Shown here: piece by piece, positions 6,587 through 64,000 of the stretch | Numbering within the stretch: position 1 is the stretch's first letter | How the letters are laid out: each line of letters begins with the position of its first letter | NCBI RefSeq assembly: GCF_018734325.1 | Contig: NZ_CP073754.1 | Span: forward strand, 1,860,001-1,924,000 | DNA from: Methylomonas paludis | GTDB lineage: Bacteria; Pseudomonadota; Gammaproteobacteria; Methylococcales; Methylomonadaceae | Direction of reading: 5' to 3' | DNA length: 64,000 bases | Program-made: the position numbers and the translations under genes | Notes under the pieces: generated by a model | Told to the model about the DNA's origin: nothing | The model's database searches: none | What the model saw: only the letters and a program-made list of their open reading frames with translations

Positions 6587-6672
6587 CGAACCGCGATAAC
6601 ACTTTCGGCTTGACCAGTATTATCAAAACCCCAAGGTATCTGTATCTAATAATAAAAAAAGGTGGGTTTAAT

Positions 6673-9028
6673 ATGACAACAATTTTAGCCGGCCCAATAT
6701 TGCGGCGCACCACGCAGAATCGAATTTGTGTCTGGTTAGCACTGGATAGCCCCCAACAGTTAAGCCTGCAAATCATCGAAGCCAATAAGCCTGAGAATGT
6801 GCTGGGTGTCAGCCGTGATGACGAACTGGCGGCCAGTCATGTGCAATTGGGTGAAAAGCTGTTTATCTACCTGTTGCAGGCCTATCCTGACCAGAATCAA
6901 AATCAGGGCTTGTTCCCGACCAATACCCTTTGTCACTACCGTTTGCTTACCGACACATCTGAAATTGATCTGCAAGCGGCGAAAGTTACTTATGGGGAAC
7001 TCAAATATCCTATTTTCCATATCCCGGCAAAGCTGACCTCCATACTCCACGGCAGTTGCCGTAAACCGCATGGGGCGCATGGTCAGGAGGCTTTAACTGT
7101 GGCCGATAGCCTGCTGGAACAATATCATCAGGAAATTGGAAAGCGTCCGGATTTATTGTTATTAACCGGCGATCAAATTTATGCTGATGATGTGGAAGCG
7201 TCCTTGCTGGATATTTTGCGCGATCAGGCACCAATATTGACTGGACGCATTGAAGACCTGCCGACAGATGAGGATAAGCCTGGCGTTTGCGAGAAACTAA
7301 GCAATCTGTTTGGCGGCAAAACCCAGCAGCCGGCTTGGTCTCCCCAGCCACTTGTGCCGCAAAACATTAAACTGGGTGGTCGTGCAGAAGTATTAAAACG
7401 TCATCATTCTGGTTTGAGCTCAACGGAAGCCGGTAATCATCTGCTGACTTTTGGTGAATTTGCCGCCATGTATATCTTTGTATTTGGCAATGCTCAGGGT
7501 TGGCAAACCGCCACGAGTTGGCAAGACATAGCGGCGAAACATATCCCGGTTGCTGCTGATAAACAGGCTGAGTATGAGCAAGCCACGCTGGCCGTGGTTG
7601 AGTTTGGCAATAATCTAAGTAAAGTTCGCAGATTACTGGCCAATATCCCCAGTTATATGATTTTTGACGATCATGATGTGACTGATGACTGGAATATAAC
7701 CGGGCATTGGTATGACAAGGTGCGCACTTCATCATTGGGGCGACGCATGGTGTCGAATGCGCTGGCGGCTTATTGGGCTTTTCAGGGCTGGGGCAATGAC
7801 CCGGATAATTTTGATGCCGATCTGGTTAAAGCCATTACCGCTCAGCTTAATCAGGCCAATCCTGATCCGGCCATTCAGGAACGCTACGATTTAATGACCT
7901 GGAAACATCGGGGCTGGGGTTTTTCGATAGCCACTGAACCACCGATTATTGCAATGGATTCCCGTACCCAGCGCCAACCGGAAAATCCATACTATCCGGC
8001 CCACTTGCTGGATCGCTATGCGCTGGACTGGTTGCGTGTGGAATGGAGCAAGCTGAAAAGCACTGCTGCAGAAGCCGGTAAAGACATTGCTTATCCGGTG
8101 TTGATTGCCGCCACGCCGGTGATCAGTGAGTCGCTATTTTTGCGAAAGCTTGTTTAGGGGCATCCCAGCCCCAACAAGCGGCAAAAATTACGCGACCGCT
8201 AATGCCTCCGGCGGCCCCGATTCGTCCTCCTCACCTCGTTCCGACCCAACAAGGGGATCGGAACTTCGGCTCCAAGTGACTTGACGGCGTTTCGCGATGC
8301 CTTGCAGGTTTTCTCCGCTTCGCTTCGAAAACCCGCCCGGCGCTACGCCTATCGGGGACTAAAAATCTTCGCTCCACTTACGTTCCGCTTCCAAGATTTT
8401 CAGCGTGGGATTTACTCCCCTGGAGCGCCTGGTGCAGTTTATCCTGACCGGCGTTGCCTATCTGGAGGATATCCCAGCCGTGCGGGCTGTGGAAGTGGCC
8501 TTTAATCAGGAGGGTTTGGTCATGGACTGGGCGGTTGATTTTCTGGATGCGGAAGCCTGGACAGCCAATTTGAACGGATTCACCGATTTCATGGATACGC
8601 TGTTACACAAAATGCATATTGATAAATGCGTATTTTTATCTGGTGATGTGCATTATTCTTTCACCACTTGCGGATTTTATACCAGCAGCAACGGCTACAC
8701 CGGCCAGCAAAAAAAGCTGAGCTGCCTGCAATTGACCAGTTCTTCATTACGCAATATCCCCAGTGATGAGCAAAAAAAGGTGTTGAATATCATTCAGCAA
8801 GACACTAATCCTAAAACTTCTATCAGTAATTGGTGGCGTTTTTACGCCAGCCAATGGCGCATGGAACACACCTTGTTGCCGTGTACGGCTAATAGCCAAA
8901 AGGTGATTGAGACTTGCAATCTTGGTCAACTGTATTTTATAGATGGTCAACCCAGCCGGCATGTGCTGCATGTGCTGGGGAGTGAGGTGGTGTATCTGCT
9001 GCCTAGCTTGGGTTCTGTGCCGGAATAA
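6673..9028 (+). pseudogene. PhoD-like alkaline phosphatase D family gene, interrupted by a 285-bp repeat
   Basis: Two pieces, 6673-8121 (483 codons) and 8408-9028 (206 codons plus stop), belong to one metallophosphatase-type protein of about 689 residues. The first piece has LLTGDQIYADD, FDDHDVTDDWN and MTWKHRGWGF; the second has VFLSGDVHYSF, the C-terminal metal-binding element. Between them sits a repeat identical to 19464-19748, which shifts the frame: the first piece reads into it and stops at 8157. Joining GTG 8119-8121 (or ATC 8122-8124) to GGA 8408 restores ...ATPV(I)GFTPLE. Start ATG 6673 has an AAGGTGGG ribosome binding site. PhoD enzymes are Ca/Fe-dependent phosphodiesterases/phosphatases; this homologue has no visible signal peptide. 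The gene is probably inactive unless the insert is removed or bypassed; a GTG at 8405 could only start a fragment. Confidence 0.85.
8122..8406. mobile_element. 285-bp structured repeat, copy 1 (inside the phosphatase gene)
   Basis: As far as I can read, every base matches 19464-19748, and the similarity stops sharply on both sides (GGTG|ATCAGTG at the left, CAGCGT|GGGA at the right). It contains strong stem-loops: TTTTTGC...GCTTGTT..GGGGC with GCCCCAACAAGCGGCAAAAA (8137-8187), GGTTTTC/GAAAACC (8307-8333) and AAAATCTT/AAGATTTT (8362-8400). No open frame of interest and no terminal inverted repeats were found. GTG flanks both sides here (8119-8121 and 8405-8407) and could be a 3-bp duplication, but copy 2 does not show one. 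It behaves like a small non-autonomous mobile element; the family is unknown to me. Confidence 0.75.
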
Positions 9029-9936: not shown

Positions 9937-10256
9937 TGGATTTGGGCTGCAGCGGTGAGGCCATTGTATATCCCGGTAACCCTTGTTTGATAACGGCTTC
10001 GCGGCGAATTCCTTGATTCCACTGCGTTGCATCGAGGCTAAAAACAATACTTTTTTAATGGTTAATTGCTTGGTCGCCTTAAGCTCAGCATATCCTAGGC
10101 CTTATCCATCAAGATAAAATTGGTCGATTACTAGCCCCGCACCCCAGATTTTGTCCTGAATCGGCCAAAATTTACCCGTCACGCCACATCAGTTACAAAA
10201 CTTGCTTACTTTATTGGTAAAATACGGAGGTTTTGTGAACCAGCCTGTCAATTATC
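9937..10256. other. Intergenic region with a fragment of the 278-bp repeat
   Basis: No gene seen. About 9983-10039 resembles the part of the tandem repeat unit at 54850-54900: both have GCGAATTCCT(T/C)GATTCC followed by ACTGCGTTGCATCGAGGCT. The ccm operon promoter should lie in the AT-rich part after 10180, but I could not pick one with confidence. Confidence 0.5.
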
Positions 10257-18573: not shown

Positions 18574-19458
18574 ATGAACGACAGAGACATTATCTCCAAA
18601 CACCTGTTCAAGCAGATGACTGTGGATATGGCGCGTTTACTCCTCGATCTGGATATTTCCGATGTGGAAATCATCGATAATGAACAGCAAAGGGTAGAAG
18701 ATCGGCGCGCGGATTTGGTCGCTAAAGTGCAAGAGCATGGCCTTAGTTATATTCTGCATATTGAGATACAGAATGATAATCAAGCCATCATGCCCTGGCG
18801 AATGCTGCGTTATCGCACCGATATAAGTCTCGCCTATCCCGGACTTGATGTGAAGCAATACCTAATCTATATAGGCAAAGCTAAACTGACTATGGCATCC
18901 GGCATAGAGCAGGCCGACCTGAGTTATCGTTATCGAACTGTGAATACGCACAGCATGAACTGCGAAAGCTTTTTTCAGCAAAACACGCCCGATGCCTTGG
19001 TATTTGCCATACTCTGCGATTTTGGCCACTATAGTAGCCGTGAAGTTGTGCGGCACATTTTGCAAGGTTTACAGAAGTTAACTGGCCATAACGAAGCAGC
19101 TTTTAGAGATTATTTACTGATGCTGGAAATCCTGTCCAGCAACCGCGATTTAAAACAAATTGTCCAAGAGGAAGAAAATATGTTGAGCCAAATCAAATAC
19201 AGCGATCTGCCTTCTTATGGATTAGGCATGAAAAAAGGCTTGGAGGATGGCATCGAACAAGGTATTGAACAAGGTATTGAACAAGGCAAACAGCAAGGAG
19301 AAGCTGTCATGCTAGAAAAGCTATTGCAGATTAAATTTGGCGATATACCAGACAGTGTTAAACAACGTTTGCAGACCGCCCATTCTGCAGAATTGCTTCT
19401 ATGGTCAGAGCGTGTATTGAGTGCAGATACATTGCATGACATATTTGCCGATCATTAA
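18574..19458 (+). CDS. Rpn-family PD-(D/E)XK nuclease with DUF4351-type tail
   Basis: 294 residues. The N-terminal part has the nuclease core as RRAD47LVAKV ... LHIE64IQ66, the D...ExQ variant of the PD-(D/E)XK motif seen in Rpn / transposase_31 proteins. After a helical middle comes a low-complexity GIEQGIEQGIEQGKQQG stretch (about 227-247), and then MLEKLLQIKFGDIPDSVKQR, typical of the DUF4351 end. Rpn proteins nick DNA and promote RecA-independent recombination. Stand-alone gene, 148 bp after hemN. A 285-bp repeat, found also inside the phosphatase gene, begins 5 bp after the stop. Whether the nuclease acts on that repeat is unknown. Confidence 0.88.
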   Translation: MNDRDIISKHLFKQMTVDMARLLLDLDISDVEIIDNEQQRVEDRRADLVAKVQEHGLSYILHIEIQNDNQAIMPWRMLRYRTDISLAYPGLDVKQYLIYIGKAKLTMASGIEQADLSYRYRTVNTHSMNCESFFQQNTPDALVFAILCDFGHYSSREVVRHILQGLQKLTGHNEAAFRDYLLMLEILSSNRDLKQIVQEEENMLSQIKYSDLPSYGLGMKKGLEDGIEQGIEQGIEQGKQQGEAVMLEKLLQIKFGDIPDSVKQRLQTAHSAELLLWSERVLSADTLHDIFADH

Positions 19459-19463
19459 TTACC

Positions 19464-19748
19464 ATCAGTGAGTCGCTATTTTTGCGAAAGCTTGTTTAGG
19501 GGCATCCCAGCCCCAACAAGCGGCAAAAATTACGCGACCGCTAATGCCTCCGGCGGCCCCGATTCGTCCTCCTCACCTCGTTCCGACCCAACAAGGGGAT
19601 CGGAACTTCGGCTCCAAGTGACTTGACGGCGTTTCGCGATGCCTTGCAGGTTTTCTCCGCTTCGCTTCGAAAACCCGCCCGGCGCTACGCCTATCGGGGA
19701 CTAAAAATCTTCGCTCCACTTACGTTCCGCTTCCAAGATTTTCAGCGT
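19464..19748. mobile_element. 285-bp structured repeat, copy 2 (after the Rpn nuclease gene)
   Basis: Reads the same base for base as 8122-8406, in the same orientation relative to the + strand. Left junction TTACC|ATCAGTG, right junction CAGCGT|ATGA; no target duplication is evident. The same stem-loops are present, so here it could also end the nuclease transcript. The rest of the gap to gyrA (19749-20019) holds a short stretch, about 19767-19790 (TTCATCCGTCATTTTAAG then TTTGGC), that recurs with two changes near 40762-40786, and otherwise nothing I recognise. Confidence 0.75.
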
Positions 19749-20019
19749 ATGATTTTTTTCGCCGCAAGTTCATCCGTCATTTTAAGTTTGGCGCACCATT
19801 AGTACTATTGTTTTTATGTCCTTAAAAGCACAATGTAATCGGTTTAACCCGGATAAAACCGCTGGCCACCAACTTCGACACATCACTTCCCACGGAACCC
19901 CTTACGTTTGATACAATACAGTGCTTTAACACTCGCTAGTCGTTTGCAGCAAAGGATGTGTTGCTTAGACTTTTTATGAGGATTCTGCCCCTTATCGGCA
20001 GTACTGGAATCACGGACAC

Positions 20020-35046: not shown

Positions 35047-35217
35047 ACAGTTCACACGACCACTTAATGGCTTAACTCATAGCAGATTCAATCAGCTACC
35101 TGTGTTATTTTCATGACAAATTGGACTTGACAAGTAAGCGCTCAATTTTCCGCGTAATTCCCACCCCCCAGCCTACCATGTCAGAATTTCCCATCGATAT
35201 TATTTTGGGGATTACCA

Positions 35218-35550
35218 ATGGCATCAATAGAAAACAAGACCGGTCACGATTTTTGGCAAAGGCACGTCGCGCAATGGCAAGCGTCTGGCTTGTCCCAAGT
35301 AAACTACTGCCGCCAGCAAGCGTTGCATACCCACCAGTTGAGTTATTGGAAGCGCAAATTTTTGATCGATTGCGAACCGGTTGACACTGAACGTAAAGCG
35401 ACTGGATTTACCCGTGTCCAAGTGGCTGCACCTATCGCCATGCCCTCATCGCCAAGTTTGTCATTGTGCTTCCGGGATGGTACACAATTGATTGGGATTT
35501 CTCAGAATAATATGGCTTTGATTCAGCAATTGATAGAGGTGTTACGGTGA
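35218..35550 (+). CDS. tnpA: IS66 accessory protein TnpA (second element)
   Basis: 110 residues: FWQRHVAQWQASGLSQVNYC and RQQALHTHQLSYWKRKFL form the helix-turn-helix region of IS66 TnpA, followed by the beta-rich end (LSLCFRDGTQLIGI). It overlaps tnpB through GTGA. About three quarters of its residues match the TnpA at 57723-58064. Confidence 0.88.
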   Translation: MASIENKTGHDFWQRHVAQWQASGLSQVNYCRQQALHTHQLSYWKRKFLIDCEPVDTERKATGFTRVQVAAPIAMPSSPSLSLCFRDGTQLIGISQNNMALIQQLIEVLR

Positions 35551-35912
35551 CTTGCATTATGCGCCCCTCTTTAGAGCTGACAGAGGTTTATCTTTACCGA
35601 CAGGCCATTGATTTTCGTAAATCCCATCGCGGGTTGGCGGCAATTGTTGAGTGCGAACTCGGCCATAATCCGTTTGATGGCGGACTGTATGCGTTCACCA
35701 ATAAGCAGCGTACTAAAATCAAATGCTTGTTCTGGGAAAATACGGGCTTTGTGCTTTATTACAAGACCTTGGTCGAGGATAAGTTCAAGTGGCCGAAGGG
35801 TGAAGAGGCATTGTTGACGTTAACGGGACAGCAATTGAATTGGCTGCTGGATGGCTACGATATTAGCGTGATGAAAGGCCATAAAAATCGGCATTATGAG
35901 TCTGTTTTTTAA
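35547..35912 (+). CDS. tnpB: IS66 accessory protein TnpB (second element)
   Basis: 121 residues starting with GTG at 35547, which overlaps the tnpA stop; an ATG four codons later is an alternative. Family signatures are VYLYRQAIDFRKSHRGLAAI, FDGGLYAFTNKQRTKIKCLF and QQLNWLLDGYDISVMKGHK. Only about six residues differ from the TnpB at 57361-57726. Confidence 0.92.
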   Translation: MTCIMRPSLELTEVYLYRQAIDFRKSHRGLAAIVECELGHNPFDGGLYAFTNKQRTKIKCLFWENTGFVLYYKTLVEDKFKWPKGEEALLTLTGQQLNWLLDGYDISVMKGHKNRHYESVF

Positions 35913-35945
35913 GGAAAAACGCCTGCTTTTTGGCTTGAATTCAGG

Positions 35946-35951
35946 TATAAT
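35946..35951 (+). promoter_or_regulatory. TATAAT element directly upstream of tnpC (second IS66)
   Basis: TATAAT ends 6 bp before the tnpC ATG at 35958, as in the other IS66 copies. A partial inverted repeat GGCTT (35932-35936) / AAGCC (35952-35956) surrounds it. No convincing -35 box is visible at 16-18 bp. Confidence 0.35.
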
Positions 35952-35957
35952 AAGCCT

Positions 35958-37613
35958 ATGATTTTATCCCACTTTTCTAGCATAGAACACGATGAACACT
36001 CGGCTATTTTGTTGCCCGAGATGCTCGCCGAGTTGCTTGAAAAAGCGCAACGAGTGGATGAATTAACACAGGCCGTTGAGCTTAAATCAGAAGTGATTGC
36101 TACGCTCAATCAACGTATACAGTTGTTAGAAGAAGCGTTGCGTTTATCCAAAATCAAACGCTTTGCGCCCTCAAGTGAGCAGTCCGGGCAAACTTCATTA
36201 TTTGATGAAGCCGAAGTCGAGGCCACGGTTGAGCTTGAAGCCGCAACGGATGCAGCCGTTGACACAGTAGAGGCTGTTGATTCGAGCGTTGAATCAGAAG
36301 CTTCTGAGCCCAATCCACCTAAGCCAAAACCTGGTCGCAAACCATTTGCCAGCCACTTACCGAGAAAGCAAATCTTTATCACACTGAGCGATGAAGAAAA
36401 AGCCGGTGCAATTACAACCTTCTTTACTAAAGTTAAAGAAGAATTAGACATCATCCCTGCCCAAGTGCGGGTTTTAGAATACATGCAGGAAAAAGCGGTG
36501 TTTCTGGAGCCTGCTCAAGCTGAAACACAACGCCGTATTATTGCCGCTGCTCTGCCCAAACATCCTGTTCCAGGCGCGATGGGCAGCATTGATTTAATGT
36601 GTAATGTAATCATCTACAAATACTGCGATGGCTTGCCGCTGTATCGGCTGGAAAACATCTTAGCCCGTTATGGCGGCGAACTCTCAAGAGCCACACTGGC
36701 CAACTGGGTCATCGCACTGGCTAGAACGCTGCAACCTTTGATTAACCTTATTCGGGATCATCAACTGGCTGGTAACATCATCATGGCCGATGAAACCCGA
36801 GTGCAGGTTCTTAAAGAACCGGGGCGACCGGCCACCTCGGATAAATTCATGTGGGTGACGCTGGGCGGCACGCCTGGTCAACCCAGTGTGTTATTTGAAT
36901 ATGATCCGACCCGCAGCCAGGAGGTGCCGTTGCGCTTGCTGGAGGGCTTTTCGGGTTATCTGCAAACCGATGGTTATGCCGCTTACAATGCCGCCTGTAT
37001 TATCAATCATATCATCCAGCTCGGTTGTTGGGATCATGCGCGCCGTAAATTTAAAGAAGCTCAAGATGCGCAGCCCAAACCCAAGAAAGGCAAGCAGCAT
37101 AAAGCCAGCAAAGCCGATCACATGCTGAGTTTAATCAATACACTCTATATGATTGAGCGGCAAATCAAAACTCTGAGTGCCGCTGAAAGATTCCAGCAAC
37201 GCTGCAAAAGAAGCCTGCCGGTTTTGAAGAAACTGAGAGCGTACTTGGACGACAATCAACACAAAGTGCCTAAGGATAGTTTAACGGGCAAGGCCATGAC
37301 TTACATGAGCAACCAATGGGATAAGCTGATGGTGTATTGCTCGAATGGGGAGCTGAACATTAGCAATATTCTTGCTGAAAACGCCATTCGCCCCTTTGTA
37401 ATGGGTCGCAAAGCATGGCTCTTCTCTGATACTCCAAAAGGCGCACAGGCCAGCGCGATTCATTACAGCCTAATTGAAACAGCAAAAGCCAATGGCTTGG
37501 AACCCTGCGCCTATTTAACCCATGTACTCAAGGCATTGCCTTATGCCGATACCGTTGAAAAAATTGAAGCCCTGTTGCCTTGGAATTTAAAAAATACTGA
37601 TTTTGCTAGATAG
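35958..37613 (+). CDS. tnpC: IS66 transposase TnpC (second element)
   Basis: 551 residues. Coiled coil at about 15-75 (ELLEKAQRVDELTQAVELKS), acidic Glu/Ala-rich linker, then the catalytic core with NIIMADETRVQVLKEPGRPA, YLQTDGYAAYNAACI, GCWDHARRKFKEAQ and the final Glu region NISNILAENAIRPFVMGRKA. Unlike the first TnpC it lacks the CPCC zinc element at the equivalent place. The frame is intact. It could supply transposase in trans to the deleted copy at 56742-58134. Confidence 0.94.
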   Translation: MILSHFSSIEHDEHSAILLPEMLAELLEKAQRVDELTQAVELKSEVIATLNQRIQLLEEALRLSKIKRFAPSSEQSGQTSLFDEAEVEATVELEAATDAAVDTVEAVDSSVESEASEPNPPKPKPGRKPFASHLPRKQIFITLSDEEKAGAITTFFTKVKEELDIIPAQVRVLEYMQEKAVFLEPAQAETQRRIIAAALPKHPVPGAMGSIDLMCNVIIYKYCDGLPLYRLENILARYGGELSRATLANWVIALARTLQPLINLIRDHQLAGNIIMADETRVQVLKEPGRPATSDKFMWVTLGGTPGQPSVLFEYDPTRSQEVPLRLLEGFSGYLQTDGYAAYNAACIINHIIQLGCWDHARRKFKEAQDAQPKPKKGKQHKASKADHMLSLINTLYMIERQIKTLSAAERFQQRCKRSLPVLKKLRAYLDDNQHKVPKDSLTGKAMTYMSNQWDKLMVYCSNGELNISNILAENAIRPFVMGRKAWLFSDTPKGAQASAIHYSLIETAKANGLEPCAYLTHVLKALPYADTVEKIEALLPWNLKNTDFAR

Positions 37614-37792
37614 GGGGAGTACGCGCTTTATTAAGCGCTTACCTTGACAATGAGATGGCAATTCAATAAAAATCATATGGTAATCAATTGGGTTTATTAC
37701 TCAAATTTCTAATTGGCCAACGTCCTGTTCGTCAGGTGTTTTGCTGTTAGTTGTCATCAGTTTTTTAACGTTAATTTGCTTAGGTTTGTATT

Positions 37793-54448: not shown

Positions 54449-54660
54449 CAACCTTATCTATCCGCTTACCCGACGATATGGCAGAAAAACTGAAGAAAAT
54501 TGCCCAAATCAGGGACATTAGCGTCAATAAACTAATGTTTGAACTATCTGTGCAAGTCTTGGCAGAAGAAGAAGCCAAGCAACGTTTCTTGGCTGCTCAA
54601 CTGCGTGGAAATCCCAAGCGGGCCTTGCAACAGCTGGATGGGCTTGATTTATTGGCCTAG
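54445..54660 (+). CDS. Ribbon-helix-helix antitoxin
   Basis: 71 residues. The start MTTLSIRLPDDMAEKLKKIA is the ribbon-helix-helix (CopG-like) DNA-binding fold, followed by a helical toxin-binding tail (AEEEAKQRFLAAQLRGNPKR). It is coupled to the PIN toxin gene. A mutated copy of this gene, together with the DNA after it, is at 58485-58679. Confidence 0.85.
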   Translation: MTTLSIRLPDDMAEKLKKIAQIRDISVNKLMFELSVQVLAEEEAKQRFLAAQLRGNPKRALQQLDGLDLLA

Positions 54661-54776
54661 ACTCAAGAAACTGTCATTATTCATTGTTAATGTTGCTTAA
54701 ATAATTTTAAAACAATTGGTTAGCTTAAAGTAATGTGATGGGCTACTTTTAATATCTTACAAGTTACTGTTTTTTA

Positions 54777-55757
54777 AGATATTTTTTGGTTAATGGTTGA
54801 TTTTGGTTCGAGTGGTGCAGGGCATTGTTGAATCCCAATGACTCTGCTTTGATTAAGGCTACGCTGCGAATTCCTCGATTCCACTGCGTTGCATCGAGGC
54901 TACGGGTCGCGATTATATAGGCTATGGTGGCCGGCTGTGTAGGGTATTTTTGCGATTGCTAAACATAAAACACCCGCGAGGTTTGGTGGCTTGCCTGGCA
55001 GCGAAGCCACCCTACATGGCTACTTTCAACACCTTAAAAATGACTGTTTTTTTAGGCTATGTTTGCGTTAATGGTTGATTTTGGTTTAAGTGGTGCAGGG
55101 CATTGTTGAATCCCAATGACTCTGCTTTGATTAAGGCTACGCTGCGAATCCCTCGATTCCACTGCGTTGCATCGAGGCTACGGGTCGCGATGATATAGGC
55201 TATGGTGGCCCGGCTGTGTAGGGTATTTTTGCGATTGCTAAACATAAAACACCCGCGAGGTTTGGTGGCTTGCCTAGCGGCGAAGCCACCCTACATGGCT
55301 GCTTTCAACACCTTAAAAATGACTGTTTTTTTAGGCTATGTTTGGGTTAATGGTTGATTTTGGTTTAAGTGGTGCAGGGCATTGTTGAATCCCACTGACT
55401 CTGCTTTGATTAAGGCTACGCTGCGAATCCCTCGATTCCACTGCGTTGCATCGAGGCTACGGGTCGCGATGATATAGGCTATGGTGGCCGGCTGTATAGG
55501 GTATTTTTGCGATTGCTAAACATAAAACACCCGCGAGGTTTGGTGGCTTGCCTGGCAGCGAAGCCACCCTACATGGCTACTTTCAACACCTTAAAAATGA
55601 CTGTTTTTTTAGGCTATGTTTGCGTTAATGGTTGATTTTGGTTTAAGTGGTGCAGGGCATTGTTGAATCCCACTGACTCTGCTTTGATTAAGGCTACGCT
55701 GCGAATTCCTCGATTCCACTGCGTTGCATCGAGGCTACGGGTCGCGATGATATACCA
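54777..55757. repeat. Tandem repeat array, about 3.5 units of 278-279 bp
   Basis: The marker ATGGTTGATTTTGGTT starts at 54793, 55071, 55350 and 55628, giving periods of 278, 279 and 278 bp; the last unit stops at about 55757. Units differ at only a few positions. Each holds two palindromes: CCTCGAT...ATCGAGG (around CCACTGCGTTGC) and GGTGGCTTGCC...GGC(A/G)GCGAAGCCACC. No convincing gene lies within. Related units stand at 58794-59230 and a fragment at 9983-10039. Neighbouring 54661-54776 is homologous to 58680-58793. Confidence 0.92.
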
Positions 55758-55799
55758 GCTGTATTCGTAACTGCGGATCGGCAACTATACGAGGCTATT

Positions 55800-56003
55800 T
55801 TGAGAACGGATTTTGGGCATCTTGCTGAAGAAATGGTGAGTCACGTAGGAATTGTTCAATTAGTTGATTTGCTTGTCGGACTGAAAGGCGACGAACGGGT
55901 TCTTGGCGAACTTTTGTGGAGCAGTAAAGTCTCCGAACGCTCACAGCGTATTAGGTCATACTTAACAGTTGAAGCGTTGAGTTTGACGAAGCACTTGCGA
56001 TGA
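55800..56003 (+). CDS. Possible truncated gene after the repeat array
   Basis: Open frame that can be read from the array edge (in frame from about 55755: PAVFVTADRQLYEAILRTDF) through VSHVGIVQLVDLLVGLKGDE to a stop that overlaps the next small gene (ATGA). The only start near is TTG 55800. VTADRQLYEA resembles the C-terminal part of PIN-type proteins, but this is weak. Most likely the 3' end of a gene whose start was lost when the repeats expanded or moved in. Confidence 0.4.
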   Translation: MRTDFGHLAEEMVSHVGIVQLVDLLVGLKGDERVLGELLWSSKVSERSQRIRSYLTVEALSLTKHLR

Positions 56004-56191
56004 CAATGCATGAAGTCGTGGAGGCTCAATCGGATGCTATCGCTCGAGAAATGGAGCGGGATGGGACTGATCTTGAAGCCACAGAACCGAGAGCGCGTAT
56101 CAAGGCACTTAAATCACTCGGCGCTTTTGAGGAAAACTTCTTCGCGGGAATGAGTGAAGCAATCAAAAAGCTAGAAAAACTCATTGAATAA
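56000..56191 (+). CDS. Small unrecognised protein, coupled to the preceding fragment
   Basis: 63 residues, charged and helical (QSDAIAREMERDGTDLEATE, FAGMSEAIKKLEKLIE). I know no family for it. The ATGA overlap with the frame before it argues for a real two-gene unit, perhaps a decayed toxin-antitoxin or similar pair. Confidence 0.4.
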   Translation: MTMHEVVEAQSDAIAREMERDGTDLEATEPRARIKALKSLGAFEENFFAGMSEAIKKLEKLIE

Positions 56192-56285
56192 CAGTGAATA
56201 AGTCGTAAGCGGACATCCGTGGTTCTGACTTCGGCCGTCCTCTTTTAGCCGTTTTGAGCCTACAAATGGCCATGACCGTACAAGT

Positions 56286-56588
56286 TTACACCGGTTCCAA
56301 CTCTATTTTTACCTTTTTACCAAGCGCGGCGGCTGCGCTCACTAAGGTGGTCAAGGTTAAACTGGTATCTTCTTCATCCAACAATCGATTAAGTGAAGCT
56401 CTGCTGGTGTGCATTTTTTTTGCCATCGCAGTCTTAGTGAGTTTAAGCGTAGACATACCTTCTGATATTTGCCAGGCAATGACACGCTTGGTCGCTACCG
56501 CTGTAACTTCGTCAAGAATAGCTTCCTCGCTGAGAAAATCATCGAAGTCACTGCCAATATGGGGATTTTCTTCGTGTTGACTGTTCAT
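56286..56588 (-). CDS. higA: HigA-like XRE antitoxin
   Basis: 100 residues. Residues about 38-95 form an XRE helix-turn-helix domain (ISEGMSTLKLTKTAMAKKMH, TSRASLNRLLDEEDTSLTLT and TLVSAAAALGKKVKIEL). It begins on the stop codon of the toxin gene (ATGA), the toxin-first order of HigBA-type systems. Its toxin is now broken by an IS66 derivative, so the antitoxin may be an orphan. It may have lost its promoter too, since that lies beyond the insertion. Confidence 0.85.
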   Translation of the reverse strand: MNSQHEENPHIGSDFDDFLSEEAILDEVTAVATKRVIAWQISEGMSTLKLTKTAMAKKMHTSRASLNRLLDEEDTSLTLTTLVSAAAALGKKVKIELEPV

Positions 56589-56770
56589 TGCTTACCTCGT
56601 AATGCTTTCAATCTTTGTTTGGCCAAATCGATTTCTGGCTTCGGTGTTTTTTGACTTTTCTTGACAAATCCATGCAGCAAAATCATCGTATGCTTGTCAA
56701 TTACAAACAGAATGCGGCCGATCCGGTTATCAAGTTTAACTGTAAGCGCTTAATAAAGCACGTACTACCC

Positions 56771-57315
56771 CTATCTGGCAAAATTCTGATTTTTAAAATT
56801 CCAGGGCAACAAGGCTTCAATTTTTTCAACCGTATCGGCATAAGGCAGTGCTTTGAGGACTTGGGTTAAATAGGCGTAGGGTTCTATTCCATTAGCTTTA
56901 GCCGTTTCAATCAAACTGTAATGGATTGCGCTGGCTTGTGCCCCTTTGGGGCTATCACTGAATAACCCTGCTTTGCGACCAATCACAAAGGGACGAATAG
57001 CGTTTTCAGCAAGAATATTGCTGATGTTCAATTCCCCATTCGAGCAATACACCATCAGCTTATCCCATTGATTACTGAGGTAAGTCATGGCCTTGCCGGC
57101 GAAGGTGCAAAGCGTTTGACTTTGGATAACCGTAGCGCTTCTTCGAGTAACTCAATCCGTTGTTTGAGCGAGGCAATGACTTCGGATTTAAGTTCAACGG
57201 TTTGCGTTAACTCATCCACGCGTTGTGCTTTTTCAAGTAATTCAGCGAGCATCCCCGGCAACAAGACAGCCGAGTAATCATCGTGTTCTAAGGCAGGAAA
57301 GTGAGGTGAAATCAT
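56771..57315 (-). pseudogene. tnpC: IS66 tnpC remnant with internal deletion
   Basis: The N-terminal piece (57315-57085) encodes the coiled coil (ELLEKAQRVDELTQTVELKS) and reaches RFAPSP, then passes the deletion point in the wrong frame and stops. The C-terminal piece (57088-56771) resumes at MTYLSNQWDKLMVYC and ends normally with LLPWNFKNQNFAR. All central catalytic residues except the final Glu region are gone, so it cannot act as a transposase. The two pieces meet at TTCGC|CGGCAAGG near 57100; the ATGA overlap of the two frames is a by-product. Confidence 0.92.
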
Positions 57316-57321
57316 GCTGAT

Positions 57322-57327
57322 ATTATA
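57322..57327 (-). promoter_or_regulatory. TATAAT element directly upstream of the tnpC remnant
   Basis: TATAAT (ATTATA on the + strand) ends 6 bp before the ATG of the tnpC remnant, the same arrangement as in both full IS66 elements although the surrounding sequence differs. This repetition is the reason for listing it. Confidence 0.35.
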
Positions 57328-57360
57328 CGCGATTTCACTCCGTAAATACTGATATTTCCC

Positions 57361-57726
57361 TTAAAAAACAGATTCATAATGCCGGTTTTTATGGCCTTTC
57401 ATGACGCTAATGTCATAGCCATCCAAAAGCCAATTCAACTGCTGACCGGTTAACGTTAACAGTGCCTCATCACCCTTCGGCCACTTGAACTTATCCTCGA
57501 CCAAAGCCTTGTAATAAAGGACAAAGCCCGTGTTTTCCCAGAACAAACATTTGATTTTAGTTCGCTGCTGATTGGTGAACGCATACAGCCCACCATCAAA
57601 CGGATTATGGCCGAGCTCACACTCAATAATCGCCGCCAGGCCACGATGGGATTTGCGAAAATCAATGGCTTGCCGGTAAAGATAGACCTCTGTCAGTTCC
57701 AAGGCGGGGCGCATGATATAAGTCAC
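57361..57726 (-). CDS. tnpB: IS66 accessory protein TnpB (deleted element)
   Basis: 121 residues with an open frame; about six substitutions separate it from the TnpB at 35547-35912, mostly conservative (V to I, T to A, E to D). It starts with an overlap to tnpA, as in the full elements. The intact state of tnpA and tnpB next to a dead tnpC suggests a recent deletion or selection through trans mobilisation. Confidence 0.92.
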   Translation of the reverse strand: MTYIMRPALELTEVYLYRQAIDFRKSHRGLAAIIECELGHNPFDGGLYAFTNQQRTKIKCLFWENTGFVLYYKALVEDKFKWPKGDEALLTLTGQQLNWLLDGYDISVMKGHKNRHYESVF

Positions 57727-58064
57727 CGCAATACCTCAAGCAAGGGTTTAATCAAAGCCAGATTAGTCTGCGTAATCCCGGTCAACCGGATGCCATCCCG
57801 AAAGCACAAGGACAAGCCCGGCGAGGAAGGTGTGGCGACAGGTGCCGCTACTTGCACTCGGGCAAAGCCGCTTTTTGGATCAGGCGAAATCGGTTCGCAC
57901 TCTGCCAGGAACTTGCGCTTCCAATAACTAAATCGATGGACAAGTAGCGCTTGCTGGCGGCAGTAACTGGCTTGAGATAACCCGGAGGTGTGCCATTGCT
58001 CGATATGGCGTTGCCAGAATTCGTGATCGGTATTGCTTTCGGTTGATGCCATCGTAAATCCCAA
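57723..58064 (-). CDS. tnpA: IS66 accessory protein TnpA (deleted element)
   Basis: 113 residues: EFWQRHIEQWHTSGLSQASY and CRQQALLVHRFSYWKRKFL form the helix-turn-helix region, FARVQVAAPVATPSSPGLSL and CFRDGIRLTGI the C-terminal part. Closely related to the TnpA at 35218-35550. An in-frame ATG two codons into the frame is an alternative start. Confidence 0.88.
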   Translation of the reverse strand: MGFTMASTESNTDHEFWQRHIEQWHTSGLSQASYCRQQALLVHRFSYWKRKFLAECEPISPDPKSGFARVQVAAPVATPSSPGLSLCFRDGIRLTGITQTNLALIKPLLEVLR

Positions 58065-58336
58065 GTTTATAGCGTGGGGATAGTCTGACAGGGCCCATAA
58101 GGGTTGTGAATTACGCGGATAATTGAGCGCTTACGTTTAACTCTAACTTCCCATATGTCACCTTCGAGATGATCGACTAAGGGCATACCGAGAGGCCAAC
58201 CGTATTGAACTGTTTTGATATCTTCGCCAATGGTTTTTCTGTCTTGGGCAGATAATCCTTTCAACCATTCTCTAACGGGCTCGCTACCTGCTTCAGTTGC
58301 AAAAAATTTAACAGAAAGTATTGGATTCATTTATGC

Positions 58337-58403
58337 AGCGTACCAAAAATGATACACTATAGCAAGAACTCTTTGACCTAAAAAAGATCATTATATGGTA
58401 CGC
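58337..58403. promoter_or_regulatory. Candidate operator/promoter region of the higBA genes
   Basis: GCGTACCA (58337-58344) and TGGTACGC (58396-58403) are perfect 8-bp inverted repeats 51 bp apart, just upstream of the toxin start. Between them, on the minus strand, TATAGTGTATCA gives a plausible -10 region. Autoregulation by the antitoxin is usual for such loci; binding here is inferred. Confidence 0.35.
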
Positions 58404-58484
58404 AGGCAGCAACTTTCTTTAATCTTGCTATTGATAGCAAGCTACGGGGATGCGATTTGGTCAAACTTAAAGTTTGCGATGTTG

Positions 58485-58679
58485 CGCAAGATGGTCTTAC
58501 CCGACGATATGGCCGAAAGATTGAAGAAAATTGCCCAAATTAGGGAGATAAGCGTCAATAATCTAATGTTTGAACTATCGGCAGAAGAAGAAGCCAAGAA
58601 ACGTTGCTTGGCTGCTCAACTGCGTGAAAATCCCAAGCGGGCCTTGCAACTACTGGATGAGCTTGATTTATTGGCCTAG
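58485..58679 (+). pseudogene. Degenerate duplicate of the ribbon-helix-helix antitoxin
   Basis: From LPDDMAERLKKIAQIREISV to the end (ALQLLDELDLLA) it is a close copy of the antitoxin at 54445-54660, but the first residues (MTTLSIR) are replaced and SVQVLAEEEA is shortened to SAEEEA. No PIN toxin gene precedes it. The frame is open from 58395 with an unrelated N-terminus (RRQQLSLILLLIASYGDAIW), so a fused product could be made, but loss of the first beta strand should prevent normal ribbon-helix-helix DNA binding. The DNA downstream is duplicated as well. Confidence 0.8.
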
Positions 58680-59235
58680 GCTCCAAAAATTTTCATTAGT
58701 TAGTGCCCATTTTATTGACTGATTTTAAAACAACTAGTTAGCTTAAAATGATGTGATCCACTGTGTTTAACATATTACATCTGACTGTTTTTTAAGGCTA
58801 TGCTGCCAATCCCTCGATTCCACTACGTTACATCGAGGCTACGGATCGCGATGATATAGGCTATGGTGGGCGGCTGTGTAGGGTATTTTTGCGATTGCTA
58901 AACATAAAACACCCGCGAGGTTTGGTGGCTTGCCTGGCGGCGAAGCCACCCTACATGGCTGCTTTCTACACCTTAAAAATGACTGTTTTTTAAGGCTATG
59001 TTTGGGTTAATGGTTGATTTTGGTTTAAGTGGTGCAGGGCATTGTTGAATCCCACTGACTCTGCTTTGATTAAGGCTACGCTGCGAATTCCTCGATTCCA
59101 CTGCGTTGCATCGAGGCTACGGGTCGCGATGATATAGGCTGGTGGCCCGCTGTGTAGGGTATTTTTATCATAGCTAAACACCACACCTGCGTGGTTTTGG
59201 TGGCTTGCCTGGCGGCGAAGCCACCTTACGTGGCT
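58680..59235. repeat. Second block of the 278-bp repeat, about 1.6 units
   Basis: 58680-58793 matches 54661-54776 after the first antitoxin. From 58794 come repeat units related to 54777-55757; TAGGGTATTTTT occurs at 58879 and 59155, a period of 276 bp. The last unit is more divergent (after about 59165). The block and the antitoxin before it form one duplicated segment about 4 kb from the original. From 59236 to 59586 I see no gene or repeat worth naming. Confidence 0.85.
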
Positions 59236-59586
59236 AAAAAGAAGTGGTTGGTTGGCTTAAATTGAGGTTATTTCTTAACCGAAAAGCCGTATCAACTTTG
59301 CAAACGGTATAGATTCAGCTAAAACCAGTTTGCCTTGAAACCTGTCTATAACAATAACCTGCTTTGACAAGCCTTCATCCGCATGGCAAATTGTCTAAAG
59401 TCATGCCCAAACACGGCTTAGCTGCTAAAATAGCGGGTTTGCCGTCAGCGCTCAGTTAATGACGTAGCCTTGATGCAGCGAAGCGGAAGCGAGGCTGTAG
59501 GCTGTGAATGGCGTGATGACCCTGTGTTTCATTACCGCTACGGCGTTTTTACCCAATCATTATTCAATCAAGTTTTTAGAGATTCA

Positions 59587-63830: not shown

Positions 63831-64000
63831 ATAATTGCTTAGCGTAACATTGCGTGAGCTTTTTTAAACAAGTTGTTTGCTTCGAGTGGTGCGCTGCACT
63901 GCGTTTAGCACATCCTACGGTGAGCCTGTTTTTAAAGGAATACTTGGACGTTGAGTAGTTACTAATTGCTCAACATAACTTTGCGTGAGCCTTTTTAAAC
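63831..64000. repeat. Tandem repeat downstream of secD, running off the window
   Basis: TAATTGCT begins at 63832 and again at 63963, and the following bases stay similar to the window end (GCGTGAGC(T/C)TTTTTAAAC), so the period is about 131 bp with a second unit starting. The first unit is the one related to 2690-2815. No gene is present in 63730-64000; secF, if present, must lie further on. Confidence 0.8.

Follow-up and report, generated by a model that had tools for sequence, protein, structure and literature searches.

A small structured mobile element of methanotrophs that may be moved by a host enzyme, DNA topoisomerase I

In Methylomonas paludis, a gene for a PhoD-like phosphatase is interrupted by a short sequence that recurs without change elsewhere in the same 64,000-nucleotide stretch of DNA (NZ_CP073754.1, positions 1,860,001 to 1,924,000), which was analysed as a whole and is referred to here as the window. 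What kind of sequence is this, and which enzyme could have placed it inside a gene without leaving a scar? The features at the two insertion sites are given here in window coordinates, together with the evidence on which each is based.

6610-8122, plus strand: first part of the PhoD-like phosphatase frame (frame join, ortholog, weak Pfam match)
8123-8405, plus strand: element copy 1, TCAG...TTTTCAGCG (comparison of 23 copies, empty sites)
8406-9028, plus strand: second part of the PhoD-like phosphatase frame (frame join, ortholog)
18574-19458, plus strand: gene for a 294-amino-acid protein with a weak DUF4351 match, ending 6 bp before copy 2
19465-19747, plus strand: element copy 2, identical to copy 1 (pairwise comparison)

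Alignment of the 23 copies in the M. paludis genome and comparison with empty sites define an element of 283 bp (TCAGTGAGTCGC...GATTTTCAGCG). A preliminary description, prepared from the window alone, was correct in reporting two identical copies, but its length of 285 bp included one flanking base on each side. It was also right about the phosphatase gene, as the two parts join in one frame and a phoD ortholog from another genus (genome G070; protein 62% identical) reads straight through the insertion point. The Pfam PhoD match of the interrupted gene scores 24 bits, below the cut-off of 27. The surroundings of copy 2 had been described less accurately, since the gap to the upstream gene, given as 5 bp, measures 6 bp (the gene ends at 19458), and for the gene named as an 'Rpn-type' nuclease Pfam returns only a sub-threshold DUF4351 match (20 bits, cut-off 25). 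As had been claimed, the element has no recognisable protein-coding frame.

The M. paludis genome (3.67 Mb, one contig) carries 23 copies of the element at approximately 100% identity, a repeat far above chance. Nineteen copies are identical to those in the window, three differ by one substitution and one lacks a single base; two further decayed relatives are also present. Copies occur on both strands, and 21 of the 23 reside in the dif-side half of the chromosome (0.95-3.15 Mb, with dif located by its consensus), which is the terminus half. Seven copies cluster within 83 kb (1.797-1.879 Mb). The identity of 19 of the 23 copies, together with empty sites that are exact, agrees with the recent movement that had been proposed. 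The element is therefore mobile, small, devoid of genes and strongly structured, and it has moved recently, a conclusion supported by the empty sites, by covariation and by the search of the genome and its relatives, all of which favour the earlier suggestion of a small mobile element of an undescribed kind.

Several other repeats share the window. Palindromic repeat families that include a 278-bp tandem array are located at 54554-59286, 9970-10040, 2704-2763 and 63859-63918, and one palindromic repeat, CGATTCCACTGCGTTGCATCGAGG, resembles a repeat beside the RAYT gene of locus L109. A large inverted duplication (35208-37642 and 56742-58062) has arms of 190-769 bp that lie approximately 20 kb apart and are 74-87% complementary, and a decayed duplicate of the region at 24.4-24.8 kb is found at 34.8-35.0 kb.

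Matches to the element were found in at least 49 of 101 genomes (M. paludis included), spread over 19 of 38 genera, and this count is a lower bound because at most seven candidates were scored per genome. The search of the whole genome and of relatives advised in the preliminary description thus returned 23 copies at home and a wide distribution beyond. More than 100 copies reside in mussel gill symbionts. A pattern scan of named genomes returned at least 120 stretches and, among those listed, 102 belong to the methanotrophic symbionts in the gills of Bathymodiolus japonicus and B. platifrons, with the other stretches listed carrying Methylomonas, Methylobacter, Methyloprofundus, Methyloglobulus, Methylicorpusculum, Methylomagnum or Methylocucumis labels. 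Three matching records with non-methanotroph labels (a Sideroxydans bin, a Rhodospirillales bin and a thiotrophic mussel symbiont) may be mixed assemblies. Three plasmid records contain a match, a pattern scan of viral contigs returned six stretches, and phage records yielded none. The family is modular, in that the initial ~97 bp and the final ~200 bp are also found apart, with other partners. Its right end is nearly invariant, with almost all copies that were read finishing in ...CAGCG.

The ends TCAG... and ...CAGCG are not inverted repeats of each other, and no terminal inverted repeat, target duplication or Rfam family at threshold was found. These results set the element apart from a miniature inverted-repeat transposable element (MITE) with named insertion sequence (IS) ends, the identity that the preliminary description had named as its possible undoing. 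An Rfam match to eiav_FSE was dismissed as chance (18.5 bits, gathering threshold 40).

Comparison with empty sites reveals that insertion is scarless. At phoD, the G070 ortholog is free of the element at precisely the insertion point, and the junction DNA, GCCACGCCGGTGA↓TGGG (the arrow marks the insertion point), is the same in this empty site; the comparison with orthologous phosphatase genes had been proposed as a check, and its outcome is favourable. At copy L021 of M. paludis, which resides in an array of repetitive extragenic palindromes (REPs), adjacent repeat units supply the empty site, and again insertion is scarless. Among 112 symbiont insertions examined, an independent empty copy was available among the fetched loci for 54, and in 51 of these 0 bp were duplicated and 0 bp were lost, the remaining three being off by 1, 2 and 8 bases. 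Many symbiont copies sit inside other repeats, and their empty sites were taken from local searches, which were used instead of a comparison of an 8-kb symbiont stretch with two related symbiont genomes that proved too repetitive. The left boundary rests on empty sites for M. paludis and symbiont copies only, and on alignment for other relatives.

Both junctions of the element obey the same rule, which is most easily read on the minus strand. The relevant positions in the window are as follows.

8406-8409, plus strand: target NNNG (TGGG) of copy 1, on the minus strand the CNNN just before the 5' end of the element (rule seen in 197 of 200 distinct insertions)
19748-19751, plus strand: target NNNG (TATG) of copy 2 (same rule)
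8126 (19468 in copy 2), plus strand: G at element position 4, which on the minus strand is the C at -4 of the 3' junction (214 of 215 copies)

When each insertion is counted once, flank position +4 is a G, and the minus-strand base at -4 accordingly a C, in 197 of 200 insertions, namely 22 of 23 in M. paludis, 58 of 59 in relatives, 114 of 115 in symbionts and 3 of 3 in other named genomes. For the relatives, the count covers a subset of all copies, fetched from the best matches. This count without doubles replaces overlapping earlier tallies (22/23 and 59/60; 120/121; 23/23, 58/59 and 138/138), in which the named-genome scan contributed 138 instances (126 from B. japonicus or B. platifrons symbionts), 122 of them with a recognisable right end and 121 distinct, with G at +4 in 120. 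The three exceptions are L021 of M. paludis, L073 of genome G032 and symbiont locus L148. In L148 the element end itself is altered, and L021 has T rather than C at -4, which neighbouring repeat units show to have been T before insertion. Pooling of all fetched loci, a count in which short motifs pick up some chance matches, gives G at +4 in 308 of the 318 distinct flanks that follow GATTTTCAGCG. For three further subfamily ends, the flank is NNNG in 14 of 16, 68 of 77 and 6 of 8 cases. Preferences elsewhere in the flank are far weaker (+5 tends against G and +1 against C), and the left flank is featureless. Only one of the four positions of the target word is fixed among the 23 near-identical M. 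paludis copies.

The corresponding base within the element is equally constant. With the left end scored as the five bases before GAGTC, G is found at position 4 in 23 of 23 M. paludis copies, 58 of 59 copies in relatives, 124 of 124 in symbionts and 9 of 9 in other named genomes, and positions 1, 2, 3 and 5 vary among families. Common descent accounts for part of this conservation, but not for the target rule. Taken together, the G at +4 in the target and the G at element position 4 give both minus-strand junctions the form 5'-CNNN↓.

The tip of the element varies in a manner that is compatible with this rule. Eighteen symbiont copies of one haplotype, with identical interiors, carry TC (7), TT (7), AC (3) or GC (1) as their outermost two bases, and the variable tip is two bases long in 51 of 54 symbiont sites tested; all 23 M. 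paludis copies read TC. Variable bases in a tip of fixed length fit an enzyme that recognises only the C and cleaves three bases beyond it. A G next to the minus-strand cut is rare in symbionts (3 of 115 targets and 1 of 124 tips) but common in the tips of relatives (25 of 59), and therefore no general second rule applies. A second element is found in or beside the copies at symbiont loci L131, L161, L163, L216 and L229. In most it starts at approximately CAGGCGCGCC, and where its end was seen it finishes in ...CTGACAGCG; 68 of 77 flanks after CTGACAGCG follow NNNG.

The minus strand of the element has an elaborate secondary structure, the main parts of which map to copy 1 as follows.

8130-8196, minus strand: long hairpin (GTCGC...GCGAC) near the minus-strand 3' end (consensus helices 14-16, compensatory changes)
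8215-8357, minus strand: central branched region (consensus structure and folding)
8358-8404, minus strand: terminal hairpin (GCTGAAAATCTT...AAGATTTTTAGT) that starts 1 nt from the minus-strand 5' end (consensus helix 1)

Hairpins are therefore present at both ends. The central region can be closed by CCCCGAT/ATCGGGG, or its GGGG run can remain free to pair with the 3' end; the alternative partners of this run are the 3' end (89.5% of cells) and the CCCC that follows the first hairpin (86 of 95 cells). A consensus for 19 members, picked by hand for diversity, comprises 78 pairs with 96.4% of cells paired, and 30 of these pairs have changed on both sides, although the structure was derived from the same 19-sequence alignment on which it was scored and is to that extent biased towards structure. 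None of 500 shuffles matches this covariation, and sliding the partners by 1-3 columns leaves at most 9 pairs changed on both sides, compared with 30. The strong stem-loops noticed at the outset are thus part of a conserved structure, and the covariance analysis of copies that had been suggested bears this out.

We take the minus strand to be the RNA-like or active strand. The wobble pairs sit on this strand, with 207 G.U cells compared with 22 A.C cells, and under RNA parameters its fold is superior to that of the plus strand in 23 of 25 members. For the M. paludis copy, z-scores against shuffles are -4.4 (minus) and -3.4 (plus) under RNA parameters, and -1.8 (minus) and -2.4 (plus) under DNA parameters, such that folding energy favours an RNA over a DNA minus strand.

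Which enzyme would read a C and cut three bases further on? All bacterial topoisomerase I enzymes, but not topoisomerase III, are described as preferring a C at -4 relative to the scissile phosphate (PMC6101483; see also PMC7587558), and cleavage is described as yielding a 5'-phosphotyrosine and a 3'-OH (PMC7587558). In the Escherichia coli enzyme, R169A reportedly changes the preferred base at -4 to A. TopA is the only type IA topoisomerase of M. paludis, and none of 13 genomes tested lacks such an enzyme. When aligned with a PDB chain that we take to be the E. coli enzyme, M. paludis TopA retains Arg169, the residue to which the preference for C is ascribed, and carries Tyr in place of Arg173 and Phe in place of Tyr177 (residue numbers by hand count).

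We assign a probability of roughly 0.4 to the reading in which bacterial DNA topoisomerase I, an enzyme of the host, mobilises this non-coding element. Scarless insertion, the rule at both junctions, structural conservation, recent amplification and the lack of coding capacity are established by the comparisons above. We infer topoisomerase I as the enzyme, and its action would involve a single-stranded DNA intermediate and would need no dedicated protein. In its favour are scarless insertion, the C at -4 at both junctions, the TopA gene with Arg169 retained, and the variable tip of fixed length. Slightly more tentative is the complete proposal, in which the element has neither its own nor a borrowed transposase, and its folded single strand is cut and pasted by topoisomerase I to give a C at -4 at both junctions. 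The single-stranded minus strand would fold compactly with a hairpin at each end, and topoisomerase I would cut it at both junctions, 3 nt past the fixed C (5'-CNNN↓), with the 5' phosphate bound to the enzyme's tyrosine and the 3'-OH left free. Once released, the strand would be joined to both sides of another CNNN↓ cut elsewhere, and replication would turn the joined strand into a double-stranded insertion.

Some observations count against topoisomerase I. The target of L021 has T at -4, Arg173 and Tyr177 of E. coli TopA differ in the M. paludis enzyme, and the minus-strand DNA fold is no better than that of the plus strand against shuffles (z -1.8 and -2.4). The enzyme is universal and the matches are almost all in methanotroph records, and therefore something more special must read the structure or the ends. 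Moreover, topoisomerase I normally rejoins the same strand. The portions of PMC6101483 and PMC7587558 that were available describe no strand transfer by topoisomerase I to a new partner. There is no consistent replication-strand bias (12 of 23 copies in M. paludis, 8 of 9 in G018), and the strand tables of four other genomes, judged by eye, agree; a lagging-strand preference was rejected on these grounds. Orientation is likewise unbiased relative to interrupted genes (38 versus 30 among 180 sites, with 112 not in a frame).

Because HUH transposases share the same chemistry, an unusual HUH enzyme is the main rival. A Y1 transposase of the IS200/IS605 or RAYT type, provided in trans, would move the folded strand with its site reading relaxed to the C at -4. 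We consider this unlikely, even though such an enzyme would account for hairpins at both ends and for scarless insertion, and Y1_Tnp genes reside in all 11 genomes tested (M. paludis has six such genes). The Y1 transposases of these 11 genomes are of differing kinds, and three genomes without scored element matches (at most seven candidates scored in each) also have Y1 genes. By eye, the five RAYT-type genes of M. paludis carry their own GTAG-type repeats, and the flanks of its six Y1 genes hold no element-like sequence except for one nearby ordinary insertion. Nor is there a lagging-strand bias in this genome. According to PMC8266576, IS200/IS605 sites are chosen by tetranucleotide guides and the studied TnpAREP enzymes cut at CT or CA. 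The RAYT beside L021 was considered as a specific mover and rejected, as it has its own GTAG repeats and the neighbouring element copy has entered the REP array. An IS91/Helitron-like Y2 mover was rejected as well, with PF04986 found in 2 of 11 genomes tested and absent from M. paludis; the best match (L364, contig C78 of G083) is IS91-type and lies ~1.6 kb from an element, with no element-like sequence at the transposase flanks.

A further rival is a SINE-like retroelement, whose minus-strand RNA would be reverse-transcribed into a CNNN↓ nick and whose variable last two nucleotides would represent the RNA 3' end. In its favour are RNA-like structure throughout the element, the excess of G.U over A.C cells, folding that is much better under RNA than under DNA parameters, and the variable 3' tip. 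RVT_1 genes are present in all 10 genomes tested that bear the element, and in 1 of the 3 tested that have no scored match, which speaks somewhat for this route. However, no shared kind of reverse transcriptase was recognised among the genomes by eye and Pfam, the RVT_1 match in G083 is only a 56-amino-acid fragment, the variable tip has a fixed length (51 of 54), and the C at -4 of the element's own end is left unexplained. We consider a retroelement rather improbable. The reverse transcriptases of M. paludis (L396 at 3.238 Mb and L397 at 3.431 Mb) are, by eye, one retron-like and one 523-amino-acid protein resembling those of diversity-generating retroelements, the latter with an extra C-terminal part that looks MutS-like.

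Group II introns in minus-strand sense at the seven loci looked at (L389-L395) are also to the credit of a retroelement. These introns (GTGTG... start, domain V) lie inside element relatives in G032, G046 and G011, and the seven loci represent three genomes and about three sites. A reverse transcriptase inside an element had been considered as a sign of an autonomous version, and proved to belong to these introns. Rfam finds D1-D4 and D5-D6 in L389 and L391 and D5-D6 in L395, with nested introns in 3 of 4 loci searched. The junctions of L389 and L391 likewise identify introns, and in L390 one element part borders the intron and the other is inverted and ~3 kb away. The boundaries in L389 are given here in locus coordinates.

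L389, 732-2759, minus-strand sense: group II intron in an element relative (Rfam and junctions)

Two explanations invoke transposases of other kinds. In the first, a dedicated enzyme yet to be described, a transposase or recombinase of another class acting in trans, would read the CAGCG end and the target C; a specific reader is indeed suggested by how little the CAGCG terminus varies and by the narrow host range. Insertion by DDE, serine or tyrosine recombinases normally produces a duplication or takes place at a shared core, and neither was seen at the element insertions. In addition, the frames shared among neighbourhoods (the 8 largest of 53 groups) mostly run out of the element itself, and one shared group consists, by eye, of IS3-type fragments at 6 loci, with varying distance and side. 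This possibility is a poor one in our judgement, below that of a retroelement. The IS3-type transposase fragments lie within 1.5 kb of copies L007, L008 and L016 (M. paludis) and L048, L050 and L064, and possibly reflect shared tolerant regions only; IS3 elements leave a target duplication. An ordinary MITE of a DDE transposase, or a degraded IS, would be small, non-coding and present in many copies, as this element is, but it is already contradicted by the lack of a terminal inverted repeat and of a target duplication, and we give it almost no credence.

As far as our searches went, the element family is undescribed in the literature covered, sizeable and recently active. The accessible literature on methanotroph repeats, RAYT, symbiont repeats and topoisomerase in connection with transposition, with subscription journals mostly outside this coverage, describes no such element or mechanism. 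If topoisomerase I is indeed the mover, a household enzyme can act as a transposase, bacterial repeats without a known mover gain a testable mechanism, and topoisomerase cleavage sites can be read in genome sequences as fossil insertions. Even with another enzyme, CNNN↓ at both junctions constitutes a precise rule that any mechanism has to meet.

Among known systems, IS200/IS605 elements and their ORF-less derivatives, which move by 'peel and paste', resemble the element in having hairpins near both ends and in causing neither duplication nor loss. The element differs in that it has no fixed target word of 4-5 nt, no matching TnpA ends in its own genome and no lagging-strand bias there, and in that its whole interior is structurally conserved. 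REP, BIME and REPIN sequences with their RAYT (TnpAREP) enzymes are likewise palindromic, non-coding and present in many copies, including in M. paludis. The element, however, is 283 bp rather than 20-40 bp in length and lacks the GTAG tag at the REP hairpin, the RAYTs of M. paludis have other repeats, and TnpAREP cuts at CT or CA rather than after CNNN. Rickettsia palindromic elements and pneumococcal BOX elements are also ORF-less, structured, modular or gene-entering, and of unknown mobiliser; the likeness is by description only, and we know of no CNNN↓-type target rule for them. Group II introns share with the element a structured RNA, and some are nested in element relatives in the same sense, whereas the element itself has no GUGYG...AY ends and no Rfam match, domain V included. 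Topoisomerase I cleavage sites belong to no mobile element and are transient cuts for which no strand transfer to a new partner is known, yet they match the junctions of the element in their single need for a C at -4 of the cut and in their use of single-stranded DNA.
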